NCBI RefSeq assembly: GCF_003075435.1
Contig: NZ_QCZJ01000042.1
Location: forward strand, 1 to 35,819
DNA length: 35,819 nt
Origin: Terrimonas sp.
Lineage (GTDB): Bacteria; Bacteroidota; Bacteroidia; Chitinophagales; Chitinophagaceae
Direction: 5' to 3'
Every line of letters begins with the position of its first letter. The first letter of the stretch is position 1. Below are positions 3,350-35,819 of this stretch, piece after piece. The notes beneath the pieces are model-generated. The model saw only the letters and a program-made list of their open reading frames with translations. It was not told the DNA's origin and did not search any database. A program made the translations under genes and the position numbers.

Positions 3350-5812
3350 CTACAATTGAATGCAGGTTTCAGAATTTAATACAGTATAGCAAGCACTAAC
3401 AGTTTTATTTGCCCAGTTCGGAACGAATCTTAAAGCGCCACTATATAGTTCATTACCTAATAAACCATACACCTTGCCACTACCTGTTATAGATACGCTG
3501 GAATTTGTAACGACTACACGCAGGGTTGTTTTTATCAGAGGAGTATTGTAATTATGCTGTCCTGTGAGTGTAAAGTCATTCGCTCCACGGTAGCTACCGC
3601 TTAGGGCAACGCTTACAAAATACAAATCTATGGAGCCGGTAATGGACACACCGTTGTTATTGGCCCTTGTGGTAACATTAGCAAAGGTAAAAGTATGCCC
3701 CCCGATAGGTACTGAAGCGTTAAAACTACCTGCCAGGTTAATTTCGGTAGCGGTTATAGATCCCTCCAGCTTCCTGTTTCCAAAAGGCCGCAGATCAAAA
3801 ATACCGCTGAAATGAATTCCGTTCTTCTTTGAAATACTGATGATGCCGTTGGCATGAGGAAGAGATGTTGCGCCGAACAACATGATGCCGGCATTGGCTT
3901 CTCCTTCCAGCAGAAAGTCCCCGGAAGTGAGTTTCCCTTTTACGCTTAACCACCCTGCATAAGGAACCTGCACTTTACCTTCCAGTTCAAATCCTTCTCC
4001 CTGTTTTACTGAAAATTTCATATCCGCTGTTGGTAATCTAAACCCATTTCCCAAATCAATCTCTACACCTGCTTTCAGCATTCCTGAAAAAGCTATTTTC
4101 TGGTTGATAAAGCTTCCTGTAATTGCTGCTTCTCCAAGTCCGAACGGCAATATAATATCACCATGCATGGTAATTCCCTCTTTACTATCAAGCTTTAGGT
4201 TTAGGTTAGCGGCCCCTAATTCTACCCCATCAACTATAAAGCTGTGGTCAACCACTTTTGTAAGTGTACACCTTTCCCTGCTTAAAACGCCTTTGGTTTC
4301 GCCTTTAAGATGAAAAGGACCAACCTCCATATCTCTGTTGGTGCCAATTTCAATGCTGTCTTTGTTGATATAAAAATATGCCAGCCCCAAATCAAGGTCT
4401 CCATAAAATGGCAGGACTATTCTGGCGCTTTCTTCCCGGTAAATACTAAAATTATCTTTTGCAGGACCAACACTCAGGTAAAAAAAGTTGGAAACCGCTG
4501 GTATGGGGACTAATAAAATGTGTTTTTTTATATCATCACCAAACAGATCAGTTAATAAAACGCCATTTTGTTGTCCTCCAAATCGCAGATAAGAAAGAGA
4601 TGGGTCACTGATAATGGCCCTATAGCCAGGGCGTTGAAATTGAAAAGTAGCGTTTACTAGTTCAAGGTTTATGTCAGCGTTAAAAACGTCCACTCCAACA
4701 ATATTATTCAAGTTTGCAAGCGAGTTAAAAATGCCATCAGCTACAGGGTTCGCCAATGGATCAATTGACCCCGTAACATTTATCATGTATCCATGATCCT
4801 GTTTGTCATTCAGATAATCCAGAATGGCATCATAATTATCCTCAACTGATAATGCTGGAGCCGGTACAATTGTTTTTTGAGGAATGTGGATATACATATC
4901 TCCGGTAACCTGTAATAAACCTTTGGTTAGAGGTATCGGAATGTTTGCCAATCTTAGATAAAAATGAGAAGAAGCTTTTTCGAAACTATTATAACCATAT
5001 TTACTTATGAAATACTCATTGTTAGCGATTTTGAAATCATAGGGAGTTGAGGTGAACCTGGCCTGGTTTGAAATTCCAACAATTGCCTGCATATCAACCA
5101 TTGGTACATATACTCCTATTGCTTCCTGGGCAGTTTGACTAACCGTTTCCCAATATATTGCCGCTTCGTCATTGCCTTCAATTTCAGAAGGCAAATCAGG
5201 CATCGAAATTTCCCCTTTCAAAAGTATCGCGGGGTCAAGTGGATCCAGGTAAAATTCCTTAAAATGATAACGAAGCTTATTCAGTTTATGTCTTAACTCA
5301 AACTTCGCATCTCTTGATTCATTATAAAGTTTGAAACGCAAGTATCTTGTTTCCGGGTTCAGGGGAACTTCAGTACCATAGTTATTAATATAATATTGGC
5401 CTGTTTCGTATTCTATATGACCTTCTATCTCTTTCCATACATATGTTTTTAGCATTTCCCCGAATAATCCCACATCAGGAAATTTTACCATGGTGGTGCC
5501 GGAAATTGAAGTAACGACTCCACCCGGCCCCGTTATTACTTCAAACCTGCCTTCTCCTATTTCAAATTCCAGGTCTTCACTTGTTTTGGTACCCAATGTT
5601 CCGCTAAACTCGTATCCATTTTCAGTTTCTGTTATATTATCGGCAACTATGGTGAAACCGCCCTGGCCGGGAGTGGGATCATTTAACTCCACTATAACCG
5701 GATCTGGTTTTACCATATCCTTTTGGCAGGAAAAGCAAAACACGACCGCTAATACCAGGCTGATCGTTTTGAAGGAGGAGGCATAACAATTCATAACAGC
5801 ATCTTTTGGCAT
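3350..5812 (-). CDS. Large secreted lipoprotein, family not recognised
   Basis: The protein has 820 residues; an internal ATG at codon 7 (5794) is a better start because the signal peptide follows directly. A hydrophobic stretch (SLVLAVVFCF) ends in FSCQKD, so Cys29 is a probable lipidation site, and the next residues are acidic and proline-rich, as in Bacteroidota surface lipoproteins. The rest is rich in Gly, Ile, Val, Thr and alternating polar residues. Many short strands of the pattern hydrophobic-x-GxI/LxG appear in the last 350 residues (for example EGSITATEINLAGSF, GVSITGSIDLYFV), which suggests a repetitive all-beta fold such as a beta-solenoid or an AsmA-like sheet. I recognise no enzyme motif. 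The gene lies 100 bp behind the hybrid regulator on the same strand and could be co-transcribed with it. Function unknown. Confidence 0.85.
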   Translation of the reverse strand: MPKDAVMNCYASSFKTISLVLAVVFCFSCQKDMVKPDPVIVELNDPTPGQGGFTIVADNITETENGYEFSGTLGTKTSEDLEFEIGEGRFEVITGPGGVVTSISGTTMVKFPDVGLFGEMLKTYVWKEIEGHIEYETGQYYINNYGTEVPLNPETRYLRFKLYNESRDAKFELRHKLNKLRYHFKEFYLDPLDPAILLKGEISMPDLPSEIEGNDEAAIYWETVSQTAQEAIGVYVPMVDMQAIVGISNQARFTSTPYDFKIANNEYFISKYGYNSFEKASSHFYLRLANIPIPLTKGLLQVTGDMYIHIPQKTIVPAPALSVEDNYDAILDYLNDKQDHGYMINVTGSIDPLANPVADGIFNSLANLNNIVGVDVFNADINLELVNATFQFQRPGYRAIISDPSLSYLRFGGQQNGVLLTDLFGDDIKKHILLVPIPAVSNFFYLSVGPAKDNFSIYREESARIVLPFYGDLDLGLAYFYINKDSIEIGTNRDMEVGPFHLKGETKGVLSRERCTLTKVVDHSFIVDGVELGAANLNLKLDSKEGITMHGDIILPFGLGEAAITGSFINQKIAFSGMLKAGVEIDLGNGFRLPTADMKFSVKQGEGFELEGKVQVPYAGWLSVKGKLTSGDFLLEGEANAGIMLFGATSLPHANGIISISKKNGIHFSGIFDLRPFGNRKLEGSITATEINLAGSFNASVPIGGHTFTFANVTTRANNNGVSITGSIDLYFVSVALSGSYRGANDFTLTGQHNYNTPLIKTTLRVVVTNSSVSITGSGKVYGLLGNELYSGALRFVPNWANKTVSACYTVLNSETCIQL

Positions 5813-5912
5813 GATTTAATAGCTTCAAAGCAACAACATATCATGCCAGCGCTATATAACACAGGTCGCAAAGAGTAGCAAAAATGTCGCGCCATTGCTG
5901 ACTTACACTGAA

Positions 5913-8879
5913 TTATGTATCACCGGCTTTAGCCTGTGCCGGTGTAATACCATATTGCTGTAAAAAAACCTTGCTGAAGTAAGATGGACTACTGAAACCT
6001 ACCTTGTAACTGATTTCAGCAATGGTGCCTGCATTTTGTCTGATCATTTCCATCGCCTTGTTCAACCGGTATGACCTGATAAATGCTGTGGGAGATTGAT
6101 TGGTAAGGGCATTCAGTTTTCTATGTAACTGGGAACGACTCATGCCCGCTTCTTTTGCCAGGTGAACAACGCTGAGGTTTTCATCACTCATCTGTTCTTC
6201 CACCACCTGCATTATTCTCTGTAAAAAAACCTCTTCCATTGAAGGAATGACAATGTCTTTAGGTTTCAGTATTAGCTCTTTCCTGTATTTTTCCTGTAAT
6301 AGTTTCCGGCTCTCCAGCAGATTACTAATTCGTAGCAGCAGTTCTTTTGGGGAAAATGGTTTAATCAGGTACTCGTCTGCCTTTTGTTGCAGTCCCATTA
6401 TTTTATCCTCAACCGATGCTTTAGCTGTGAGTAATATTAACGGTATATGGCTGGTTCTTGCATCTTTTTTCAATGCTTCGCATACTTCATAACCATTCTT
6501 TTCCGGCATCACAACATCACTTATAATCAGGTCGGGAATGATTTCATTAGCCGTTTTTATGCCATCTGCCCCGTTGGTAGCTTCTGCTATAGTATACTTA
6601 TGATGCAGAATATCCTTTACATACAGCATTACATCTTTATTGTCTTCAATCACCAGTATAAGGGGCGCTTTTTCTTTTGTTTCGTCCGACAAAGAGTTGC
6701 CTGGCAGGACTGCCTGAACTTCATCAAAGCCGGGAGTGATTTGTTGTGCCGGTTGCAACATTTCATGGTTTTCCGGCAAGGGTAATGAAACAACTATTTC
6801 GGTGCCTTCGCCTGGCTTGCTGAAAGCAGCGATATCCCCATTGTGCAGGCGAACCAGTTCTTTTGATAAAGCAAGGCCGATACCGCTTCCGGCATAATGG
6901 GACTTTTGTGCTTCAGCTCCCTGGTAAAACCTGTTGAATATGTGCGGAATATCTTTTTCGTCAATGCCTATACCTGTATCCTGTACCTGTATATCACACC
7001 AGGATATACCTTCCCTTTCAACAAGACGGATTGATACAGTTATTTTTCCGTTCTCATTGGTGAATTTGAATGCATTCGATAACAGGTTGATCATAACGGT
7101 TTCTATTTTTTCCCTGTCAACCGGTATTACCAGGTGCTGAATAGCTGAATCAATGCTCAGGTTAATTTGTTTATCGGCTGCCATCGATGAGAAATTCGTT
7201 GTTACCCCGCGCACCAGTGAAACAATATCCAACGTAGTAATACTCATCTCAAGGTTGCCTGATTCCAGTTTAGACGAATAGAGCAACTGGTCAACGAGGC
7301 CGAGCAACCGCCGGGCGCTTCGCTCTACCATTCCCAATTGTTTAATCATCTGAAGGTCGCTGGTTGAAGCGTGTATGGTTTCGATGGGGCCCAATATTAA
7401 TGTAAGCGGAGTTCTGAACTCATGTGATATGTTGGAGAAGAAACGTGATTTCATCTGTTCCAACTCTTTCTCTTTTTCCAGCAAGCGAAGGTTTTTGCGG
7501 CCGATTGTACGTTCCCGGAAATATAACGGCAGCAATACCGCTGCAATTAAAGTGCCGGCCAACACATAAGCCCTGCGCCTGAATGTTGCGGCTTCCTGTT
7601 GCTCACGGAGCAGGATGATCGTGTTATCTTTTTTTTCTGCTTCGTATCGTTCACGCAATTCTTCTGCTTGTTTTGATTTTTCAGCATTAAAGAGCGAGTC
7701 TTTGATAGCCGTATGACTTACAAGGGCGTCATATGCTTTCGCGTAATCTTGCTGTGCACTGTAAATTCTGGATAGAATGGAATATGCGAGTTTTTGGTCA
7801 TAAAGCAACTCATTATCAATGGCGAGGTTGAGTTGTTTTTTTGCATAATATGAAGCAGAATCAAATTTTTTCTGTGAGAGATAATTTTCAGCCATGTGCC
7901 CGGAAGTATATACGTTTTGATAGCTGTAACCCATTTCCTCCGCCAGTGCAAAAGCCTCTTTCAAAAATATAGTTGCTTTTTCGTATGCCTTTTGCCCGGA
8001 ATAATAACTTCCAATATTGTCGAGATTGGTAATGATCAGATCATGATTGTTGATCCGCCGGGCTATTTCGAGCGACTGATCATAATAGTGCAAAGCAGAA
8101 TCGGATCGGCCTGACTGACTGTGCACAGACCCCAGGTTTACCATTGACCAGGCCTGAAGATTTTCATTTTTAATTTTAGTGCTTAGGTTAAGCTCCTGGT
8201 GCATATACTCCAACGCTTTATCCCGATTACCCATTTCCTCAAAAGTTACTCCCAGGTTTCCAAGTAACATGGCCAGCGCTAAGTCATCCTGTAGTTCTGT
8301 ATAATATTGTTCTGATATGAGAAAGTTTTCAATTGCTGCTGCATAACGCCCTTTAATACTGTTGAGTATCCCGAAGTTTTGGTGACCACGAGCCAGCATA
8401 GTTTGAAAATTGATTTCCTTCGCAATAGTTAGCGATTGCTCTGCTGCAAGAGTAGCGCTGTCATAATTGCCTTTTTGATAATGCAGGAGATATAATTGGT
8501 TGTAGCTGCGGGATATCAGCTGCTTATCTTTAATAGTCTCGCTTATACTGATGGCTTTACGGCAATACTCAAACCCTTCTGCGTGTGCGCCATTGGTACT
8601 GCTTGTGTAAGACATTAACAGCAGGCAATTTGCCAGGATCTCGTTATAGCCTGATTTTGGCAACAGGTTATACGCTTCTTTAGCCAGGCTATCCGCAAGT
8701 TTAATATCGGTTCTCAAATAACTTTCGGCAAGTTGTATCAATGTATCCACGCTGGCTGTATCTGCCTTATTGGCGGTTTCAAAGCTATAAATCACTTGCG
8801 TATTACCCCAGCTTAGTTCTGTTAATGCGAGAAAGAAAATCAGCAAGCCGACAAGTATATATCGTTCAATAATTATCAT
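5913..8879 (-). CDS. Hybrid two-component regulator: TPR sensor, histidine kinase, receiver, AraC DNA-binding domain
   Basis: A 988-residue one-protein signalling system. Residues 1-26 are a signal or first membrane segment. Residues 45-395 form TPR-like helical pairs (GNLGVTFEEMGNRDKALEYM, NLGSVHSQSGRSDSALHYY). A short coiled coil and a membrane segment (about 436-454) follow. The HisKA H-box SNISHEFRTPL places the phospho-His at 486; the ATPase has its N-box near 588-611, G1 DTGIGID at 634-640 and G2 GSGIGLAL at 664-671. The receiver spans 738-858, with acidic pair E745/D746, phospho-acceptor D788 and K840. Residues 880-985 are an AraC-type double helix-turn-helix (LSVVHLAKEAGMSRSQLHRK, IAEISYKVGFSSPSYFSK). 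All catalytic residues are present. In this family the sensor faces the periplasm and the output acts on nearby genes, so the downstream lipoprotein is a candidate target; that is inference. Confidence 0.95.
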   Translation of the reverse strand: MIIIERYILVGLLIFFLALTELSWGNTQVIYSFETANKADTASVDTLIQLAESYLRTDIKLADSLAKEAYNLLPKSGYNEILANCLLLMSYTSSTNGAHAEGFEYCRKAISISETIKDKQLISRSYNQLYLLHYQKGNYDSATLAAEQSLTIAKEINFQTMLARGHQNFGILNSIKGRYAAAIENFLISEQYYTELQDDLALAMLLGNLGVTFEEMGNRDKALEYMHQELNLSTKIKNENLQAWSMVNLGSVHSQSGRSDSALHYYDQSLEIARRINNHDLIITNLDNIGSYYSGQKAYEKATIFLKEAFALAEEMGYSYQNVYTSGHMAENYLSQKKFDSASYYAKKQLNLAIDNELLYDQKLAYSILSRIYSAQQDYAKAYDALVSHTAIKDSLFNAEKSKQAEELRERYEAEKKDNTIILLREQQEAATFRRRAYVLAGTLIAAVLLPLYFRERTIGRKNLRLLEKEKELEQMKSRFFSNISHEFRTPLTLILGPIETIHASTSDLQMIKQLGMVERSARRLLGLVDQLLYSSKLESGNLEMSITTLDIVSLVRGVTTNFSSMAADKQINLSIDSAIQHLVIPVDREKIETVMINLLSNAFKFTNENGKITVSIRLVEREGISWCDIQVQDTGIGIDEKDIPHIFNRFYQGAEAQKSHYAGSGIGLALSKELVRLHNGDIAAFSKPGEGTEIVVSLPLPENHEMLQPAQQITPGFDEVQAVLPGNSLSDETKEKAPLILVIEDNKDVMLYVKDILHHKYTIAEATNGADGIKTANEIIPDLIISDVVMPEKNGYEVCEALKKDARTSHIPLILLTAKASVEDKIMGLQQKADEYLIKPFSPKELLLRISNLLESRKLLQEKYRKELILKPKDIVIPSMEEVFLQRIMQVVEEQMSDENLSVVHLAKEAGMSRSQLHRKLNALTNQSPTAFIRSYRLNKAMEMIRQNAGTIAEISYKVGFSSPSYFSKVFLQQYGITPAQAKAGDT

Positions 8880-27598: not shown

Positions 27599-27803
27599 CC
27601 TGCCTTTTATCTGGCTGATCAGGCTATACCAGGTTGTTATATCTCCCATGCTTGGCCCCAAGTGCAGGTTTACACCAACATGCTCGCAATATGGCATTGA
27701 AGCATTTAAAAAACATGGGTTGATAAAAGGACTATGGCTTACAGTTAAACGCATAAGCCGTTGTCATCCCTGGGGCGGGCATGGGTATGACCCGGTGCCG
27801 TAA
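27573..27803 (+). CDS. yidD: Membrane protein insertion efficiency factor YidD
   Basis: 76 residues: an amphipathic or membrane-associated N-terminus ([20 protein letters not shown]), then the family core [19 protein letters not shown] with the two conserved cysteines, and the ending [17 protein letters not shown]. YidD helps YidC insert inner-membrane proteins. It begins inside rnpA, 26 bp before the rnpA stop, in the universal rpmH-rnpA-yidD neighbourhood, so the two are translated from one message. A 14-bp palindrome GCAATATATATTGC lies just after it (27815-27828). Confidence 0.95.
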
Positions 27804-27894
27804 AACAGTAACCGGCAATATATATTGCAGTAAAGATCCCGGGCTAATACTGATTACAGAACAATATCGTATTGAATTGTTTTAAAATGATCCC

Positions 27895-28812
27895 TTAATT
27901 TAAGGACCTGTATTCATTGGGCGTCATTCCTGTTTTTTGTTTGAACAGGCGCGTAAGATGTTGCGGGTATCTAAAGCCCATTTCAAAGGCAATTTCATTT
28001 ATGGTTTTATTGCTGTCGAAAACTTTGTCCTTAGCAACATCAATAATCTTGTTCTGAATGTACTCCTGCGCAGATTTCCCGGTTTCTTTCTTAATTAAAT
28101 CGCCGAAGTAATTGGCAGATAAATTGAGTTGATCGGCACAATAGGCAACAGACGGCAGTCCGGTTTCCATTGGCCTGTCAGATGAAAAATAGCCGTTCAA
28201 CAACTCCTCAAATTTTTCCAGGATTCCTTTATTGACATTTTCCCGGGTCATAAACTGGCGGTCATAAAACCGCTCGCAATAATTCAGGAACAGTTCAATG
28301 TTAGATGCAATCAATCTTCGGCTATGCTTATCCACCGGGTGTTGCAATTCCGTTTCAATTTTTGAAAACACATCCAGTACGAGTCGGCGCTCCCTGGCCG
28401 ACAAATGCAGGGCCTCATTGGTATTGTAGCTAAAAAAACTATATTCATTAATGCCCTTAGAAAGCGAAGAGCCACGTATCAGCTCCGGATGAAAAACCAA
28501 TGCGTGGCCTATTGGCTGGTACAGGTCTGTTTTATTTTCCACATCCAATACCTGCCCGGGAGATATAAAAACCAATGTCCCCTCCTGGTAGTCATAAGTT
28601 GCACGCCCGTATTTCAAATCGCCGCACTTTACATCCTTCAGGAAAACACAAAATAAACCAAAGTTCATTTTAGAGCCTGTTCTTTTGTGCGCTTTTGAAA
28701 AATCAATCACACTCACCAGCGGATGCAGGGTTTCGTGATTGTTGAATTTATTATAATCATCAACCGTATTAAAATTAATCACATTGTTCATACCTGTTGC
28801 TTTTACTACCAC
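27895..28812 (-). CDS. AraC-family transcriptional regulator, intact
   Basis: 305 residues, or 298 from the ATG at 28791 (MNNVINFNTV), which I consider equally likely. The N-terminal 170 residues are a cupin-like ligand domain (LVFISPGQVLDVENKTDL), followed by the linker helix NYCERFYDRQF and two helix-turn-helix motifs at about 213-300 (LPSVAYCADQLNLSANYFGD and TINEIAFEMGFRYPQHLTRL). It is a paralogue of the broken regulator at 686-1438. It is divergent from the reductase/hydrolase cluster starting at 28956, and a putative direct-repeat operator lies between them at 28857-28895, 45 bp from its own start, so it probably controls the cluster and itself. The ligand is unknown. Confidence 0.92.
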   Translation of the reverse strand: MVVKATGMNNVINFNTVDDYNKFNNHETLHPLVSVIDFSKAHKRTGSKMNFGLFCVFLKDVKCGDLKYGRATYDYQEGTLVFISPGQVLDVENKTDLYQPIGHALVFHPELIRGSSLSKGINEYSFFSYNTNEALHLSARERRLVLDVFSKIETELQHPVDKHSRRLIASNIELFLNYCERFYDRQFMTRENVNKGILEKFEELLNGYFSSDRPMETGLPSVAYCADQLNLSANYFGDLIKKETGKSAQEYIQNKIIDVAKDKVFDSNKTINEIAFEMGFRYPQHLTRLFKQKTGMTPNEYRSLN

Positions 28813-28856
28813 TAAAGTACATATTCATATTATCCTTTGGCCCATGCCGGTTGCAT

Positions 28857-28895
28857 ATCAGTAATATTGGTAGTAAAAACAGTAATCTGTATACC
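28857..28895 (+). promoter_or_regulatory. Putative AraC operator, copy 1 (direct half-sites 21 bp apart)
   Basis: ATCAGTAATATTGGTAGTAA, five bases, then GTAATCTGTATACC. The two half-sites CAGTAATATTGGTA (from 28859) and CAGTAATCTGTATA (from 28880) are direct repeats 21 bp apart, two turns of the helix. A copy with 35 of 39 identical bases lies at 32867-32905. It ends 60 bp before the aldo/keto reductase start. Known AraC-family sites have this geometry; binding by the adjacent regulator is inference. Confidence 0.7.
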
Positions 28896-28940
28896 CGTAA
28901 CCTGGATGGAGGTCACGAATTTTGTCTATGTAATAATTGA

Positions 28941-31108
<2,168 letters not shown>

Positions 31109-31231
31109 TATTATACATCAAATAGCCATAAGCAATCAGTAGTCAGCCATCGGCACGCGTTTGATTGCACACAAACCGTAGACGCATAAGGGCTGACATC
31201 TGATAGCTGAAGGCTGATAGCTTTTATACAC
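31109..31231. repeat. Dispersed repeat between the reductase and DUF4440-like genes
   Basis: Bases 31192-31222 are an inverted copy of 15770-15800, with 27 of 31 identities. The flank 31137-31160 (AGTAGTCAGCCATCGG) carries a further degenerate unit. The repeat interrupts an otherwise tightly packed gene cluster but need not stop transcription, since no T-run follows. Confidence 0.6.
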
Positions 31232-31705
31232 ATGAAATATGTTTTATTCGGATTGCTGCTGATAGCAAGCATGCAAGGGTTGTATGCACAGGAAAATACT
31301 TCCGGCAATATTTCAAAAGCAGAGCAGGAACTGCTTGATCTTTCAAAGAAAAAATGGCAGTGGATGGCAGAGAAAAATGTGGATGAACTGGCTGATTTAT
31401 TTCATGATAAATCAGTGTATGTACACATGGGTGGCTCATGGGGAAAGCAACGTGAACTTGACGTGATCAAAATCGGGGGGATATGGTATAAGAAAGCCGA
31501 TGTGCATAATGCGTCCGTTAACATAATCGGGAATACTGCTATCCTTTTAAACAGGATCACACTCCTGGCAGTAGTAGGAGGTAATGAAGTAACCAACCCG
31601 TTTATAGTTACCGAAGTGTATGTAAAAGTAAATGACGCATGGAAGCTCGGTTCTTTGTCTTTTACAAGACTGATGACGCTGGACAATAATACAGTAAACC
31701 ACTAA
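31232..31705 (+). CDS. Secreted NTF2-like (DUF4440-type) protein
   Basis: 157 residues. The signal peptide MKYVLFGLLLIASMQGLYAQ is followed by a small alpha+beta domain: helices ISKAEQELLDLSKKKWQWM and VDELADLFHDKSVYVHMG, then strands around SVNIIGNTAILLNRITLLAV, VTEVYVKVNDAWKLGSLSF. This is the cone-shaped NTF2/SnoaL-like fold, which often binds small hydrophobic molecules or acts as an isomerase or dehydratase. The C-terminal W-x-L-x-S-x-SFT is characteristic of DUF4440. No catalytic triad can be claimed. It starts after a repeat-filled gap and is followed 11 bp later by the hydrolase gene, so the two are probably co-transcribed. Confidence 0.82.
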   Translation: MKYVLFGLLLIASMQGLYAQENTSGNISKAEQELLDLSKKKWQWMAEKNVDELADLFHDKSVYVHMGGSWGKQRELDVIKIGGIWYKKADVHNASVNIIGNTAILLNRITLLAVVGGNEVTNPFIVTEVYVKVNDAWKLGSLSFTRLMTLDNNTVNH

Positions 31706-31716
31706 AACCAATTTTA

Positions 31717-32790
31717 ATGAAAATATTGATCAATTGGGGCATAGCATGCTTTTTGCTGACAATAAGTATATCGGTTCCGGCGCAGAAAAGTATAAAGCAG
31801 AAGCCGCTGGTGATTGAAGAGCAAGGGAGCTTTGCTGTAGGTGGAACGGTAATCACCAATCCCGGAAAATACGACCCGGTTAAACGTACCCCTGAAGGAC
31901 AAACATTTCATGGCGATCATGCTTATGTGTTTTACCAGATTCCGGTGAAGGCACGTAAATATCCATTAGTGATGTGGCATGGTATCGGGCAATTTTCCAA
32001 AACATGGGAAACCACACCGGACGGTCGCGAGGGTTATCAGAATATATTTTTACGCAGGCGGTTTGGTGTTTATTTACTGGATCAGCCACGGCGCGGTAAT
32101 GCAGGCAGGAGTACGACCAATGCCGTTATTGAAGCCACTCCCGATGAACAAAACTGGTTTGGAACATTCCGGCTTGGTATCTGGCCGGACTATTTTCCCG
32201 GTGTGCAGTTTTCAAAAGACCCGGAAACACTGAACCAGTATTTTCGCTCTATGACGCCCAGTATAGGTCCCATTGATTACAATGTAAATATCAATGCAGT
32301 TGCTGCACTGTTTGATAAAATCGGCCCCGGCATTCTTGTTACACATTCACATTCGGGGGGAATGGGCTGGCTTACCGCTATTAAAAACCGGAATGTAAAA
32401 GCTATAATTTCTTATGAACCCGGCAGCGGTTTTGTGTTTCCAGAAGGCGGGGTTCCCGAACCCATACCCAGCTCTGCAGGAGCACTGGAAGCCGCAAGTG
32501 TGCCTATGAATGACTTTATGTTGCTTACTAAGATTCCTATTGTGATCTATTATGGAGATAATATTCCGGAAACGTTATCTGACAATCCCGGTGCAGATGG
32601 ATGGAGAGCTCGTTTGGAAATGGCAAGGTTATGGAGAGATGCGGTAAACAGCCATGGCGGTGATGTAACCGTGGTACATCTGCCAGAAGCAGGGCTTAAA
32701 GGGAATACGCATTTTCCGTTTTCAGATTTGAATAACATAGAAGTTTCAGATTTGATGAGCAAATGGCTTAAGGAAAAAGGTCTGGATTAG
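31717..32790 (+). CDS. Secreted alpha/beta hydrolase, esterase-713-like
   Basis: 357 residues with a signal peptide (INWGIACFLLTISISVPAQ). Oxyanion-region VMWHGIGQFSKTWETTPDGR and the phrase FGVYLLDQPRRGNAGRST strongly recall the esterase 713 group of alpha/beta hydrolases. The nucleophile elbow reads THSHSGGMG with Ser213 the expected nucleophile. The acid residue and the His near the end (NTHFPFSD) complete a plausible triad. The usual GxSxG is replaced by SHSGG, as in relatives I recall. It should cleave an ester or lactone outside the cytoplasm; the substrate is unknown. A 39-bp operator-like site and a hairpin follow before the next gene. Confidence 0.85.
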   Translation: MKILINWGIACFLLTISISVPAQKSIKQKPLVIEEQGSFAVGGTVITNPGKYDPVKRTPEGQTFHGDHAYVFYQIPVKARKYPLVMWHGIGQFSKTWETTPDGREGYQNIFLRRRFGVYLLDQPRRGNAGRSTTNAVIEATPDEQNWFGTFRLGIWPDYFPGVQFSKDPETLNQYFRSMTPSIGPIDYNVNINAVAALFDKIGPGILVTHSHSGGMGWLTAIKNRNVKAIISYEPGSGFVFPEGGVPEPIPSSAGALEAASVPMNDFMLLTKIPIVIYYGDNIPETLSDNPGADGWRARLEMARLWRDAVNSHGGDVTVVHLPEAGLKGNTHFPFSDLNNIEVSDLMSKWLKEKGLD

Positions 32791-32866
32791 ATGCCGTAGC
32801 CACCCTGCTATAAAGTATGCATATATTCAGATGCGTTATCTATCCTGTTGTTCAGATCTTTCGTCA

Positions 32867-32905
32867 ATCAGTAATATTGGTAGTAATCTCCGTAATCTGT
32901 ATACC
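32867..32905 (+). promoter_or_regulatory. Putative AraC operator, copy 2
   Basis: The same layout as the site at 28857-28895: ATCAGTAATATTGGTAGTAA, five bases, GTAATCTGTATACC, with half-sites 21 bp apart. It ends 46 bp before the flavodoxin ATG, in the same orientation to the gene as copy 1 has to the reductase gene. It suggests a second regulated promoter inside the cluster. Confidence 0.7.
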
Positions 32906-32907
32906 AT

Positions 32908-32933
32908 AAAGTTCTATCGCTCTTTAGAACTTT
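32908..32933. promoter_or_regulatory. 9-bp inverted repeat in the flavodoxin leader
   Basis: AAAGTTCTA (32908-32916) and TAGAACTTT (32925-32933) are perfect inverted repeats around 8 bases. They start 2 bp after the operator and end 18 bp before the start codon. They could be a second protein-binding site or an RNA hairpin controlling the message; no copy exists before the reductase gene, so it is particular to this promoter. Confidence 0.55.
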
Positions 32934-32951
32934 GTGTCTTTAGAAGGAGCT

Positions 32952-33584
32952 ATGATGAAAAGGATAATAAGATTTTGTGTGATGATACCGGCAGCAATAT
33001 TCATACTTTCCGGTTGCTCAAAAGCACAAACCGTGGAAAAAGAAAAAGCTGAGTTACTGAAAAATAAAAATATACTGATCATTTATTTATCCCGAACCAA
33101 AAACACAAAGGCCGTAGCCGAGATCATCCATAAAAACGTTGGGGGCAAATTAGTAGCGCTGGAATCAGAAACACCATATCCCGAACACTACCAGACTATG
33201 GTAGATCAGGTGGTAAGAGAAAACAGTACCGGATATTTGCCACCGCTCAAAACAAAGATTGATAGTATAGAAAAATACGGTATGGTATTTATCGGTTTCC
33301 CAACCTGGGGAATGCAGCTACCACCACCAATTAAAAGTTTTCTGCACGAATATGATTTAAGCGGTAAAACCGTAATCCCATTCAATACAAATGGGGGTTA
33401 CGGTATCGGCAGCAGTTTTCAGACAGTAAAACAATTATGCCCGAACAGTATGGTGTTAGACGGGTTCTCCACGAAAGGCGGTGTGGAACGTGACGGAATA
33501 TTGTATGTAATGAAGGGCGAAAAAGAAAAACAGGTGCAAACGGAAGTAAAGAAATGGTTGCAGAAAATCAGCATAAAAAATTAA
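32952..33584 (+). CDS. Lipoprotein flavodoxin
   Basis: 210 residues from ATG 32952 (32955 is also possible). The signal MKRIIRFCVMIPAAIFILSG ends in SGC-SK, a clear lipobox, so the protein should be anchored to a membrane outside the cytoplasm. The body is a flavodoxin fold with the phosphate-binding loop IIYLSRTKNTKAVAEII in place of the TGxT loop, FIGFPTWGMQLPPPIKSFL (the tryptophan loop) and FNTNGGYGIGSSF (the second FMN loop). It should carry FMN and act as a low-potential electron carrier or NAD(P)H:quinone-type reductase (the group includes NAD(P)H-quinone reductases and YqeG-type flavodoxins). It is followed 11 bp later by the decarboxylase-type gene. Confidence 0.87.
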   Translation: MMKRIIRFCVMIPAAIFILSGCSKAQTVEKEKAELLKNKNILIIYLSRTKNTKAVAEIIHKNVGGKLVALESETPYPEHYQTMVDQVVRENSTGYLPPLKTKIDSIEKYGMVFIGFPTWGMQLPPPIKSFLHEYDLSGKTVIPFNTNGGYGIGSSFQTVKQLCPNSMVLDGFSTKGGVERDGILYVMKGEKEKQVQTEVKKWLQKISIKN

Positions 33585-33595
33585 ACCGACACTAT

Positions 33596-34315
33596 ATGAA
33601 AGCAATACTACTACTTATAGCAATAGTTGGTATAACGGGTAATGTAAATGCCCGGCAGGAAATGACAACAGAAGATGCATTAAGCCATAAAGAACAAAGT
33701 ATTATTTCCATCGCTGCGTTAACTGCAAAGGGCGATCCGTACGAACTAAAAACAGCACTGAATACGGGTCTTGATGCCGGGCTAACGGTAAATGAAATAA
33801 AAGAAGTATTGGTGCACCTGTATGCCTATTGCGGATTTCCGCGCAGTATCAGGGGATTGCAAACATTTATGCAGGTACTTGATGAACGGAAAACAAAAGG
33901 CATTGCCGATAGCCCCGGCAGCGATGCTTCGCCCATTGACCAAACCGGTAGTAAGTATGAGCGTGGTAAAAGGATTTTGGAAGAATTGACCAAAACGCCA
34001 CAACCCGAAATTCTTACAGGCTATTCAGCTTTCGCACCGGTAATAGACATCTTTTTGAAAGAACATTTGTTTGCCGATATTTTTGAACGCGATGTATTGA
34101 CCTGTATCCAAAGAGAATTAGTAACGATTTCTGTAATGGCCGCTATTGGTAATGCAGAACCCATGTTGCGCTCACATTTATCTATTTGCCTGAATACAGG
34201 TTTAACTCCCGAACAACTGAAGCAGTTTGTAACTGTAATTAAAGCAACAATAGGGAAAAGAGAAGCAAGATCAGCACATAAGGTTTTAGAAGAAGTGTTA
34301 AAAAACAAGCAATGA
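33596..34315 (+). CDS. Secreted carboxymuconolactone-decarboxylase family protein, tandem domains
   Basis: 239 residues from ATG 33596; an earlier in-frame ATG at 33554 lies inside the flavodoxin gene and gives no signal peptide. The signal is ILLLIAIVGITGNVNA. Two CMD domains follow: the first around 30-105 (HKEQSIISIAALTAKGDPYE, NEIKEVLVHLYAYCGFPRSI), the second around 145-235 (RELVTISVMAAIGNAEPMLR, PEQLKQFVTVIKATIGKREA). The first carries a single Cys (AYCGFP), so the CxxC of the peroxidase-type AhpD is absent and a hydroperoxide role is not supported. The family also includes real gamma-carboxymuconolactone decarboxylases. It overlaps the next gene by 4 bp in an ATGA arrangement, which argues for one message. 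Confidence 0.87.
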   Translation: MKAILLLIAIVGITGNVNARQEMTTEDALSHKEQSIISIAALTAKGDPYELKTALNTGLDAGLTVNEIKEVLVHLYAYCGFPRSIRGLQTFMQVLDERKTKGIADSPGSDASPIDQTGSKYERGKRILEELTKTPQPEILTGYSAFAPVIDIFLKEHLFADIFERDVLTCIQRELVTISVMAAIGNAEPMLRSHLSICLNTGLTPEQLKQFVTVIKATIGKREARSAHKVLEEVLKNKQ

Positions 34316-35394
34316 AATCAGCATATTTAAACATGAAAAAGATCACATCAATAGTTGCAATAGTAACCTCCATAGCAGGAGCAGATATGGTGCATGCGCA
34401 ATCCGGCCAACAGGAGCGTCTACAAAATCCTTTTGCGCTGGTATATGATGGGGCAATAACTAAAAATGAAAAAGGAAAAGTGAATATTCATCCTGTTACC
34501 TATAAACTGAACGGGATTGATATTGCCGCCAATGTTTATACACCTGCAGATTACGATGCCTCAAAAACATATCCTGCTGTAGTGGTAGCGCATCCTAATG
34601 GAGGCGTGAAAGAACAGGTTGCTGGCTCATATGCCCAACAGTTAGCCGGACAGGGATATATTACTATCGCCGCAGATGCTGCCTATCAGGGAGCAAGTGG
34701 CGGAGAGCCACGCCATACGGACAAACCTGCAAACCGAATTGAGGACATCCATGGCATGGCTGATTTTATTACGCAATATCCGGGGGTTGATGCAGACCGT
34801 TTGGGCGTTTTAGGCATTTGTGGTGGTGGTGGTTATACATTAGCCGCAGCCAAAAGCGATAAACGTTTTAAAGCAGTTGCTACATTAAGTATGTTCAATT
34901 CAGGCGAAGTACGACGGAACGGTTTTATGAATTCACAGGTAAACACCATCCAGGAGCGCCTGCAACGGGCAACAGCGGCCCGCGAACAGGAAGCTGCAGG
35001 TGGCAAAATCATCTATGCAGGTGTAGCAAGCATAACAGATGAAGAAATTGCAAAAACTTCAACCGATCTGTATCGTGAGGGATATGAATACTATTATAGA
35101 AAATATGTATGTCCCGGCTCAACCTTTTTATACACCATGAGTAGTTTGCTAAACCTGATGACATGGGACGCAACAAACCAGATTGAATTGATTAACCAAC
35201 CCCTGTTGATGATCGCAGGAAGCAAAGCTGACACAAAATATATGACAGACGAAGCATTTGCCAAAGCAATCAACGCAAAGAGCAGGGAGCTGTTTGTTGT
35301 TGAAAATGCTACCCATATACAAACTTACTGGAAACCGGAGTATGTATCACAGATAGTAAATAAACTGGTGAAGTTTTATAAAACCAATCTTTAA
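34312..35394 (+). CDS. Secreted dienelactone-hydrolase-like alpha/beta hydrolase with Cys nucleophile
   Basis: 360 residues from the ATG overlapping the previous stop, or 353 from ATG 34333, which begins directly with the signal peptide (MKKITSIVAIVTSIAGADMV…HAQ). The nucleophile elbow is LGICGGGGY with Cys170 instead of Ser, as in dienelactone hydrolase, and the acid and base are Asp307 (AGSKADT) and His335 (ENATHIQTY). VVVAHPNGGVKEQ forms the oxyanion region. The combination suggests a hydrolase for strained lactones or activated esters in the periplasm; the substrate is unknown. The insertion about 195-285 (aromatic YEYYYRKYVCPGS) makes a large cap domain. The cupin gene follows after 9 bp. 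Confidence 0.87.
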   Translation: MKSAYLNMKKITSIVAIVTSIAGADMVHAQSGQQERLQNPFALVYDGAITKNEKGKVNIHPVTYKLNGIDIAANVYTPADYDASKTYPAVVVAHPNGGVKEQVAGSYAQQLAGQGYITIAADAAYQGASGGEPRHTDKPANRIEDIHGMADFITQYPGVDADRLGVLGICGGGGYTLAAAKSDKRFKAVATLSMFNSGEVRRNGFMNSQVNTIQERLQRATAAREQEAAGGKIIYAGVASITDEEIAKTSTDLYREGYEYYYRKYVCPGSTFLYTMSSLLNLMTWDATNQIELINQPLLMIAGSKADTKYMTDEAFAKAINAKSRELFVVENATHIQTYWKPEYVSQIVNKLVKFYKTNL

Positions 35395-35403
35395 AATTTA
35401 AAA

Positions 35404-35697
35404 ATGAAGGATCTTAAAAATATAGTGATGTCACTTTTTTGGGGAACGTTGATGCTGTCCTGTAAACAACAAAACCCGGCGGGGCAACCGAAACCGGAAG
35501 GTCCGGTCTTTGCAAAAGGAGAAAAGATAACAAATGACAACTTTGCCGGTACCGTGTGGCTGAACCGCTTAATTAATGCGGACAGTCTTAACCCAAATGC
35601 CGTAGGCAGTGTAATTTTTGAACCCGGCGCCAGAACCAAATGGCATAGCCACCCTGCCGGGCAGATAATATTAGCATTAGATGGTATCGGGTATTAG
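35404..35697 (+). pseudogene. Lipoprotein cupin, cut short by an IS5-like insertion
   Basis: 97 residues as read. MKDLKNIVMSLFWGTLMLSC is a lipoprotein signal with the Cys at position 20. The first half of a cupin barrel follows: FAGTVWLNRL, VIFEPGARTKWHSHPAGQII and LDGIGY. The metal motif HSHPxGQ is present, but the second cupin motif and the other half of the barrel are missing; relatives continue for about 60 more residues with a further His. The TAG at 35695-35697 coincides with the end of an insertion sequence starting there, so the stop comes from the insertion and not from the gene. Confidence 0.85.
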
Positions 35698-35819
35698 ACC
35701 TCTTGTATTAATTGAAAAAGGCATATAATTCATAATTGTAAATGCCAGCGATTAAATTTACTCTTAATCCAAAACGTTTTCTTCTGTTACGGTATCGTTC
35801 GCCCAGTATTTTGAATACT
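35694..35819 (-). mobile_element. IS5-family insertion sequence, partial at the right edge
   Basis: The border with the cupin gene is marked by the change after the cupin residues GIGY: TTAG (35694-35697) fits the YTAR target of the IS5 subgroup, and AGACCTCTTG would be the terminal repeat. The element runs beyond the window, so the second terminus and target copy cannot be seen. Confidence 0.65.
35708..35819 (-). CDS. C-terminal end of an IS5-family transposase (5' part outside the window)
   Basis: On the minus strand the frame from the window edge to TAA at 35708-35710 encodes the ending VFKILGERYRNRRKRFGLRF-like sequence: here GERYRNRRKRFGLRVNLIAG and IYNYELYAFFN. The block YRNRRKRFGLRxNLIAGIYN is the hallmark of the C-terminus of many IS5-type DDE transposases. 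Only about 37 residues lie in the window. Whether the transposase is intact cannot be judged. Confidence 0.85.
   Translation of the reverse strand, partial: VFKILGERYRNRRKRFGLRVNLIAGIYNYELYAFFN

Follow-up and report, generated by a model that had tools for sequence, protein, structure and literature searches.

Direct-repeat operators very probably bound by an AraC-type regulator lie at a fixed distance from Bacteroidota -7 promoter elements in a Terrimonas sp. gene cluster

A gene cluster of Terrimonas sp. contains two nearly identical sites, one between an AraC-family regulator gene and an aldo/keto reductase gene and one upstream of a flavodoxin gene, to which the neighbouring regulator very probably binds. 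The window that we analysed is one whole contig, 35,819 nucleotides long, of a 6.18-Mb draft genome in 82 contigs. What is new here is that the operator lies at a fixed distance from the Bacteroidota -7 element. The sites, their conservation, their tie to one regulator subfamily, and this fixed promoter geometry were computed directly; from them we infer binding, activation, autoregulation, and the kind of inducer. To the explanation as a whole, that these are the regulator's direct-repeat operators and that they serve class II activation of the enzyme genes and autoregulation of araC in response to a carbonyl or other electrophile, we assign a probability of roughly 0.8.

The two sites are as follows:

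28857-28895, plus strand: operator 1 (predicted), half-sites at 28859-28873 and 28880-28894, direct repeats 21 bp apart
32867-32905, plus strand: operator 2 (predicted), half-sites at 32869-32883 and 32890-32904

A preliminary description of this DNA had claimed that these 39-mers share 35 of 39 bases, and both the coordinates and the count are exact; all four differences fall within the 5-base spacer. They are the best 39-mer pair anywhere in the window. In 100 windows simulated with a first-order Markov model, with pairs seeded on shared 14-mers, the best pair matched at 20-29 of 39 positions (one simulation had no seed). The halves of operator 1, CAGTAATATTGGTAG and CAGTAATCTGTATAC, are identical at 10 of 15 positions, and those of operator 2, CAGTAATATTGGTAG and CCGTAATCTGTATAC, at 9 of 15. 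Operator 1 is flanked by araC, whose start codon is at 28791 on the minus strand, and by the aldo/keto reductase ORF (ATG at 28956), and operator 2 lies before the flavodoxin (ATG at 32952) in the same orientation to its downstream gene, just as had been proposed.

A weight matrix trained on 77 related sites (described below) gives operator 1 a score of 55.5 bits and operator 2 a score of 54.4, with the next best place in the window at -2.7. The self-similarity of this matrix is maximal at a shift of 21 (r = 0.49; next 0.22), as direct-repeat half-sites would give, so that the 21-bp repeat claimed earlier is found in both sites and in the matrix; 21 bp is the classical spacing for AraC sites. 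The matrix also has a weaker palindrome-like component (r = 0.42 at one offset), which leaves the half-site orientation short of proof. The motif suggested for the half-site starts needs one correction: the second half of operator 2 starts with CCGTAAT, so the motif letter R has to become M. Two other readings of the region were dropped: a site made of three GTAAT units, the middle one of which lacks conservation in the orthologue profile, and a third, inverted half-site for looping (TGGTAGTAAAAGCA, 28798-28811, minus strand), where the profile is merely T-rich.

Around the operators lie the following genes:

27895-28791, minus strand: AraC-family regulator gene, 298 aa, with a beta-rich N-terminal domain and a helix-turn-helix C-terminal domain
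28956-30005, plus strand: aldo/keto reductase 1 (Pfam Aldo_ket_red, 1.4e-62)
30125-31108, plus strand: aldo/keto reductase 2, full length (Pfam Aldo_ket_red, 1.2e-76; below the cut-offs of the NCBIfam families listed)
31232-31705, plus strand: DUF4440/SnoaL-like protein
31717-32790, plus strand: alpha/beta hydrolase (weak family match, under the Pfam cut-off)
32952-33584, plus strand: flavodoxin (Pfam Flavodoxin_4)
33554-34315, plus strand: carboxymuconolactone-decarboxylase-like (CMD-like) protein
34312-35394, plus strand: alpha/beta hydrolase 2
35404-35697, plus strand: cupin ORF (positions 10-67 of 130 of profile NF049940), shortened by a repeated element near the contig end

Reductase 1 begins with what we take to be a Tat-like signal. 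Its ORF stops at an in-frame TAG (30003-30005), and the frame stays open for about 37 codons more, to 30116; this is probably a broken gene, or else a sequencing error. Because of this early stop, the working reductase behind operator 1 may be reductase 2.

The regulator matches Pfam HTH_18 (1.5e-18) and also HTH_AraC, and both families were found in all 10 members of the regulator alignment, the window protein included, in keeping with a C-terminal domain of two helix-turn-helix motifs. By sequence, the match to AraC_binding is weak. In an AlphaFold2 model of the regulator (mean pLDDT 84.7, pTM 0.63), which is weak at residues 56-67, the N-terminal part is beta-rich and the C-terminal part helical. 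In Foldseek searches, the N-terminus matched RhaR with target-normalised TM-scores of 0.68-0.72 and AraC regulatory domains with scores of 0.54-0.60, and the C-terminus matched solved AraC-type DNA-binding domains. The model thus points to an N-terminal cupin-like domain for ligand binding or dimerisation. The top-ranked full-length matches have low TM-scores of about 0.3, perhaps reflecting a different arrangement of the domains.

If the sites belong to this regulator, the motif should be restricted to a few promoters near it, and at the thresholds used the organism's own genome has it at just these two promoters. A genome-wide search with a 37-mer at up to three mismatches returned two matches, operators 1 and 2, and the reversed-pattern control returned none. 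With a looser pattern at up to two mismatches there were seven matches (both operators with none, five places with two) versus three in the control; weaker sites would slip past such pattern searches.

Across 147 genomes of the family, the motif follows the regulator. A 33-base pattern with at most three mismatches occurs in 12 of them, the window genome included, and its reversed control in none; a degenerate pattern with at most one mismatch occurs at 66 places in 46 genomes, compared with four reversed-control matches in the 147. Close orthologues of the regulator (at least 51% identity) are present in 48 genomes, from a search that scored at most 16 candidates in most genomes and whose match list covers the identity range used. 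The motif is present in 42 of these 48 genomes and in only 4 of the 99 without such an orthologue (G005, G031, G036, and G041), leaving six with the orthologue alone and 95 with neither (Fisher p = 1.4e-25, a guide only because the genomes are related). The motif rate in genomes lacking the orthologue (4/99) is about that of the reversed control (4/147).

This association also holds at the level of single genes: 39 of the 66 strict pattern matches sit immediately upstream of a close orthologue. Of the 59 regulator copies with 54% identity or more, 39 have the pattern right in front of them, and for 14 of the other 20 the weight matrix finds a site there, bringing the total to 53 of 59. The remaining six (L161, L165, L172, L175, L150, and L156) have no adjacent site above the threshold and are perhaps regulators of diverged specificity; degraded or shifted versions of the site are still present at the usual distance in L165, L175, and L156. 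No operator was found at 23 paralogue loci, one with a regulator at 51% identity and 22 at 40-48%, where the best score is 0.2 bits. There are 27 pattern matches that do not lie beside a listed orthologue; we fetched 20, of which 16 score above 14 bits, and the four below (L146, L152, L154, and L157) look like chance.

We also searched genome contigs more widely, with the window regulator aligned with nine orthologues as the query, and took the best 80 of at least 587 confirmed stretches, a choice that makes this set of loci lean to close relatives. Judging from the genus and family names in their titles, the 80 loci presumably span several classes of Bacteroidota. In 77 of the 80, araC has the site upstream of it, on the opposite strand, with matches at 24 or more of 33 consensus positions; the highest counts are 20 in the remaining three and 21 in shuffled regions. 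The distance from the operator to the araC start codon is 63-75 bp in 72 of the 77 and 57, 59, 83, 116, and 166 bp in the others. Among the three loci that lack an araC-adjacent site, L050 and L089 have one elsewhere in the stretch and L091 has none above 14 bits in its whole stretch. Over 821,045 bases, the weight matrix gave 98 matches above 14 bits, comprising the 77 training sites and 21 others; the reversed sequence gave none. Together with the 53 of 59 close copies in the separate family sample, these counts bear out the expectation that the motif would precede orthologous regulators, and, along with its confinement to few promoters, they support the regulon originally claimed to link regulator and enzymes.

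Several individual loci are worth recording. On a Hymenobacter plasmid (L016), araC, the site, and reductase sequence follow in the same order as in the window; the reductase behind that operator (5068-6358) is unannotated and aligns in two pieces, and may be broken too. In some relatives, several operators occur within a few kb (L147 at 2457 and 3274; L084 at 90, 3118, 4897, and 6589). In L148, the matches at 1549 and 1570 overlap with a 21-bp offset, which would give three half-sites in a row. L007 has its site on the other strand, at the same place as L153. The title of locus L077 names Rickettsiales; this contig may have been mis-binned.

We aligned the 77 regions on their operators to obtain a profile of the promoter. 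Three blocks are strongly conserved: the operator itself, letters like GAACTTTG at columns 58-65, and TAAwTTTG on the other strand at columns -40 to -47; the profile is also T-rich at columns -58 to -55. An excerpt of PMC9723704 places the -7 element of Flavobacterium psychrophilum, TAnnTTTG, at -12 to -5. The two outer blocks of the profile resemble this Bacteroidota -7 element, and they yield three probable elements in the window:

28812-28819, minus strand: probable -7 element of the araC promoter, TACTTTAG, with 5 of the 6 fixed letters of TAnnTTTG (from the 77-region profile)
28917-28924, plus strand: probable -7 element of the reductase promoter, GAATTTTG, 5 of 6 fixed letters, 21 bp behind the operator 40-mer 28856-28895
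32927-32934, plus strand: probable -7 element of the flavodoxin promoter, GAACTTTG, 5 of 6 fixed letters, 21 bp behind the operator 40-mer 32866-32905

The sole departure of GAATTTTG and GAACTTTG from TAnnTTTG is a G for the first T, and columns 58-65 of the profile have the same G.

The gap between operator and -7 element is nearly constant. From the operator 40-mer to the downstream element (NAnnTTT[GA]) it measures 21 bp at 66 and 20 bp at five of the 77 araC-adjacent sites; of the 21 further sites of the 80 loci, which lay outside the training of the matrix, 16 have 21 bp and four have 20 bp. Both window operators have the 21-bp gap. The divergent element (TAnnTTT[GA], with a gap of 36 bp) accompanies 62 of the 77 araC-adjacent sites versus none of the 21 others, as expected if only araC-adjacent sites serve two promoters. 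With the -7 element set at -12 to -5, both window promoters have one half-site at -70 to -56 and the other at -49 to -35, positions near those of araI1 and araI2. No TTTG-like -33 block is seen in the profile of the 77 regions. This geometry fits an AraC-type activator bound in place of the -33 element. We prefer class II activation because of the fixed distance to the -7 element and the missing TTTG-like -33 block, an argument from geometry.

A mechanism can be proposed on this basis. A dimer of the regulator most likely occupies each site as two direct-repeat half-sites that lie 21 bp, or two helical turns, apart. The gene-proximal half-site would end at about the -33 position, at its fixed distance from the -7 element, and the bound regulator most likely recruits RNA polymerase to the reductase and flavodoxin promoters in a class II manner. 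Operator 1, which also lies upstream of the divergent araC promoter, probably serves autoregulation. The inducer would be found among reactive carbonyls or related electrophiles; this reading follows from the genes served, taken at the level of gene families, and the DUF4440, cupin, and carboxylesterase neighbours do not by themselves point to aldehydes.

The same operators could belong to the regulator and yet be used for repression, with the inducer releasing it. Lying against one promoter and between two divergent ones, the operator is placed so that a bound dimer could get in the way of polymerase, and the same geometry could serve a repressor. We consider this unlikely: the operator ends 20-21 bp short of the -7 element rather than covering it, and there is no conserved TTTG-like -33 block for polymerase to use alone. 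It also counts against repression that AraC-type regulators are as a rule activators when they bind a direct repeat next to the -35 region.

It is very improbable that a different factor, such as an alternative sigma factor or a global regulator, reads the motif and that the nearness of araC is incidental. Such a factor would account for the tight coupling of the motif to the -7 element, as in an extended promoter, but not for the way in which the motif tracks the close orthologue genome by genome, with 39/66 strict matches directly upstream of it, nor for its absence from the 23 paralogue loci and its two copies only, at the thresholds used, in the window genome. Less probable still is that the two sites are alike merely because a promoter segment was copied recently within the cluster, with no regulatory role. 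The window pair (35/39) is more alike than any of 19 same-locus site pairs from the 80 loci, the best of which share 34, so there may have been recent copying or gene conversion between the promoters. Yet the identity does not go past the operator ends, and from there to the -7 element the two sites have different sequences of the same length, 21 bp; the site is kept in orthologues that presumably come from several classes, and flavodoxins in L018, L025, L026, and L029 have sites of their own. Activation by the neighbouring regulator is the reading that we carry forward.

To describe the predicted regulon, we took as first ORF the longest within 450 bp of each site, a mechanical choice that found one at 73 of the 77 araC-adjacent and 15 of the 21 other sites and by which some assignments will be wrong. 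The first ORF is an aldo/keto reductase at 43 of the 73 araC-adjacent sites; with window reductase 2 added, the 74 proteins include 44 aldo/keto reductases, nine carboxylesterases, and eight DUF4440 proteins. Behind the other sites, the 16 proteins (15 plus the window flavodoxin) include five aldo/keto reductases, five Flavodoxin_4 proteins, and two CMD proteins. At the second sites of L018, L025, L026, and L029 the first ORFs are flavodoxins 59-67% identical to that of the window. A scan of eight more ORFs behind sites, one from L018 and seven drawn from a list of 29, gave an Ahr-like aldehyde reductase (L160), a PaoA-like aldehyde dehydrogenase subunit (L148), SDRs (L142 and L171), a CMD-like protein (L174), aldo/keto reductases (L151 and L018), and a 77-aa ORF that matched nothing (L155). 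Of these eight, only L142 and L171 reached a curated cut-off among the families shown, for one SDR subfamily each. Homologues of the other cluster proteins come and go among the 80 loci: the DUF4440/SnoaL-like protein has one (at least 35% identity) in 49, the alpha/beta hydrolase in 29, the CMD-like protein in 25, and alpha/beta hydrolase 2 in 19.

The closest parallel in gene arrangement is E. coli YqhC, an AraC-type activator that is divergent from and adjoins aldehyde/aldo-keto reductase genes (yqhD-dkgA); in addition, a DkgA-like reductase lies behind the operator in L018. YqhC has one binding site in the spacer shared with yqhD-dkgA, according to an excerpt of PMC8249747, and it acts in response to glyoxal and furfural, according to one of PMC5297802. 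In contrast, BLASTP similarity of the window regulator to YqhC is limited to the helix-turn-helix region (26% over 80 residues), and the window cluster has flavodoxin, DUF4440, CMD-like, and hydrolase genes. The yqhC-yqhD spacer does not contain our operator (its best score is -41.1 bits), and there is no YqhD-like gene among the window cluster ORFs scanned. We file the window regulator as an AraC-family regulator with its own operator and not as YqhC.

E. coli AraC at araI1-araI2 binds direct-repeat half-sites two helical turns apart, the proximal one against the -35 region. The window system shares this direct-repeat layout, and Foldseek finds similar N- and C-terminal folds; it differs in half-site sequence and in its Bacteroidota-type -7 element, and nothing in it speaks for a sugar ligand or for DNA looping. 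E. coli RclR, annotated as responding to hypochlorite, is another AraC-type regulator that controls a stress-defence set, but its identity is 20% over 150 residues, and the RclR region of E. coli has no match to the operator (best -15.4 bits). In the open-access literature we found no description of this operator or regulon, nor the string GTAATCTGTATA. Queries combining AraC, Bacteroidetes or Flavobacterium, and the enzyme names returned no open-access paper, and a broader regulon search returned work on rhamnose. Open-access work on aldehydes and furfural included E. coli papers, some of them on YqhC or glyoxals, and its titles and abstract openings do not announce this regulon.

The cluster likely arrived behind yidD by horizontal transfer. 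DNA similarity of five genus relatives (of 11 found) to the window stops at 27799-27804, the end of yidD, and the regulator cluster starts where it stops (27799-35819), behind rnpA-yidD; the stretches fetched from these five relatives contain no homologues of the cluster proteins. We compared 12 genus genomes, counting the window's own: leaving that one aside, regulator identity reaches 76% at best, and three genomes give no match at the threshold used. A quick tree places the window regulator close to sequences of Chryseobacterium, Flavobacterium, and Pedobacter, though not with strong support. The contig's last 128 bases (35692-35819), where the cupin ORF is cut, have six further copies in the genome, five of which lie at contig ends, and are probably an insertion sequence.

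Taken more broadly, these results may describe a phylum-wide, partly mobile regulon for defence against carbonyls and electrophiles in Bacteroidota, in which an AraC-type activator would replace the -33 element at a spacing that hardly varies, and whose regulator and operator would travel together with a set of enzymes that changes; we put the odds of this wider picture to be about even. The finding offers a defined regulator-operator pair with a precise promoter layout in a phylum whose promoters depart from the textbook kind. A simple motif suffices to read the regulon from genomes, and a tractable relative would allow direct tests of the activation model and of the carbonyl-stress hypothesis.
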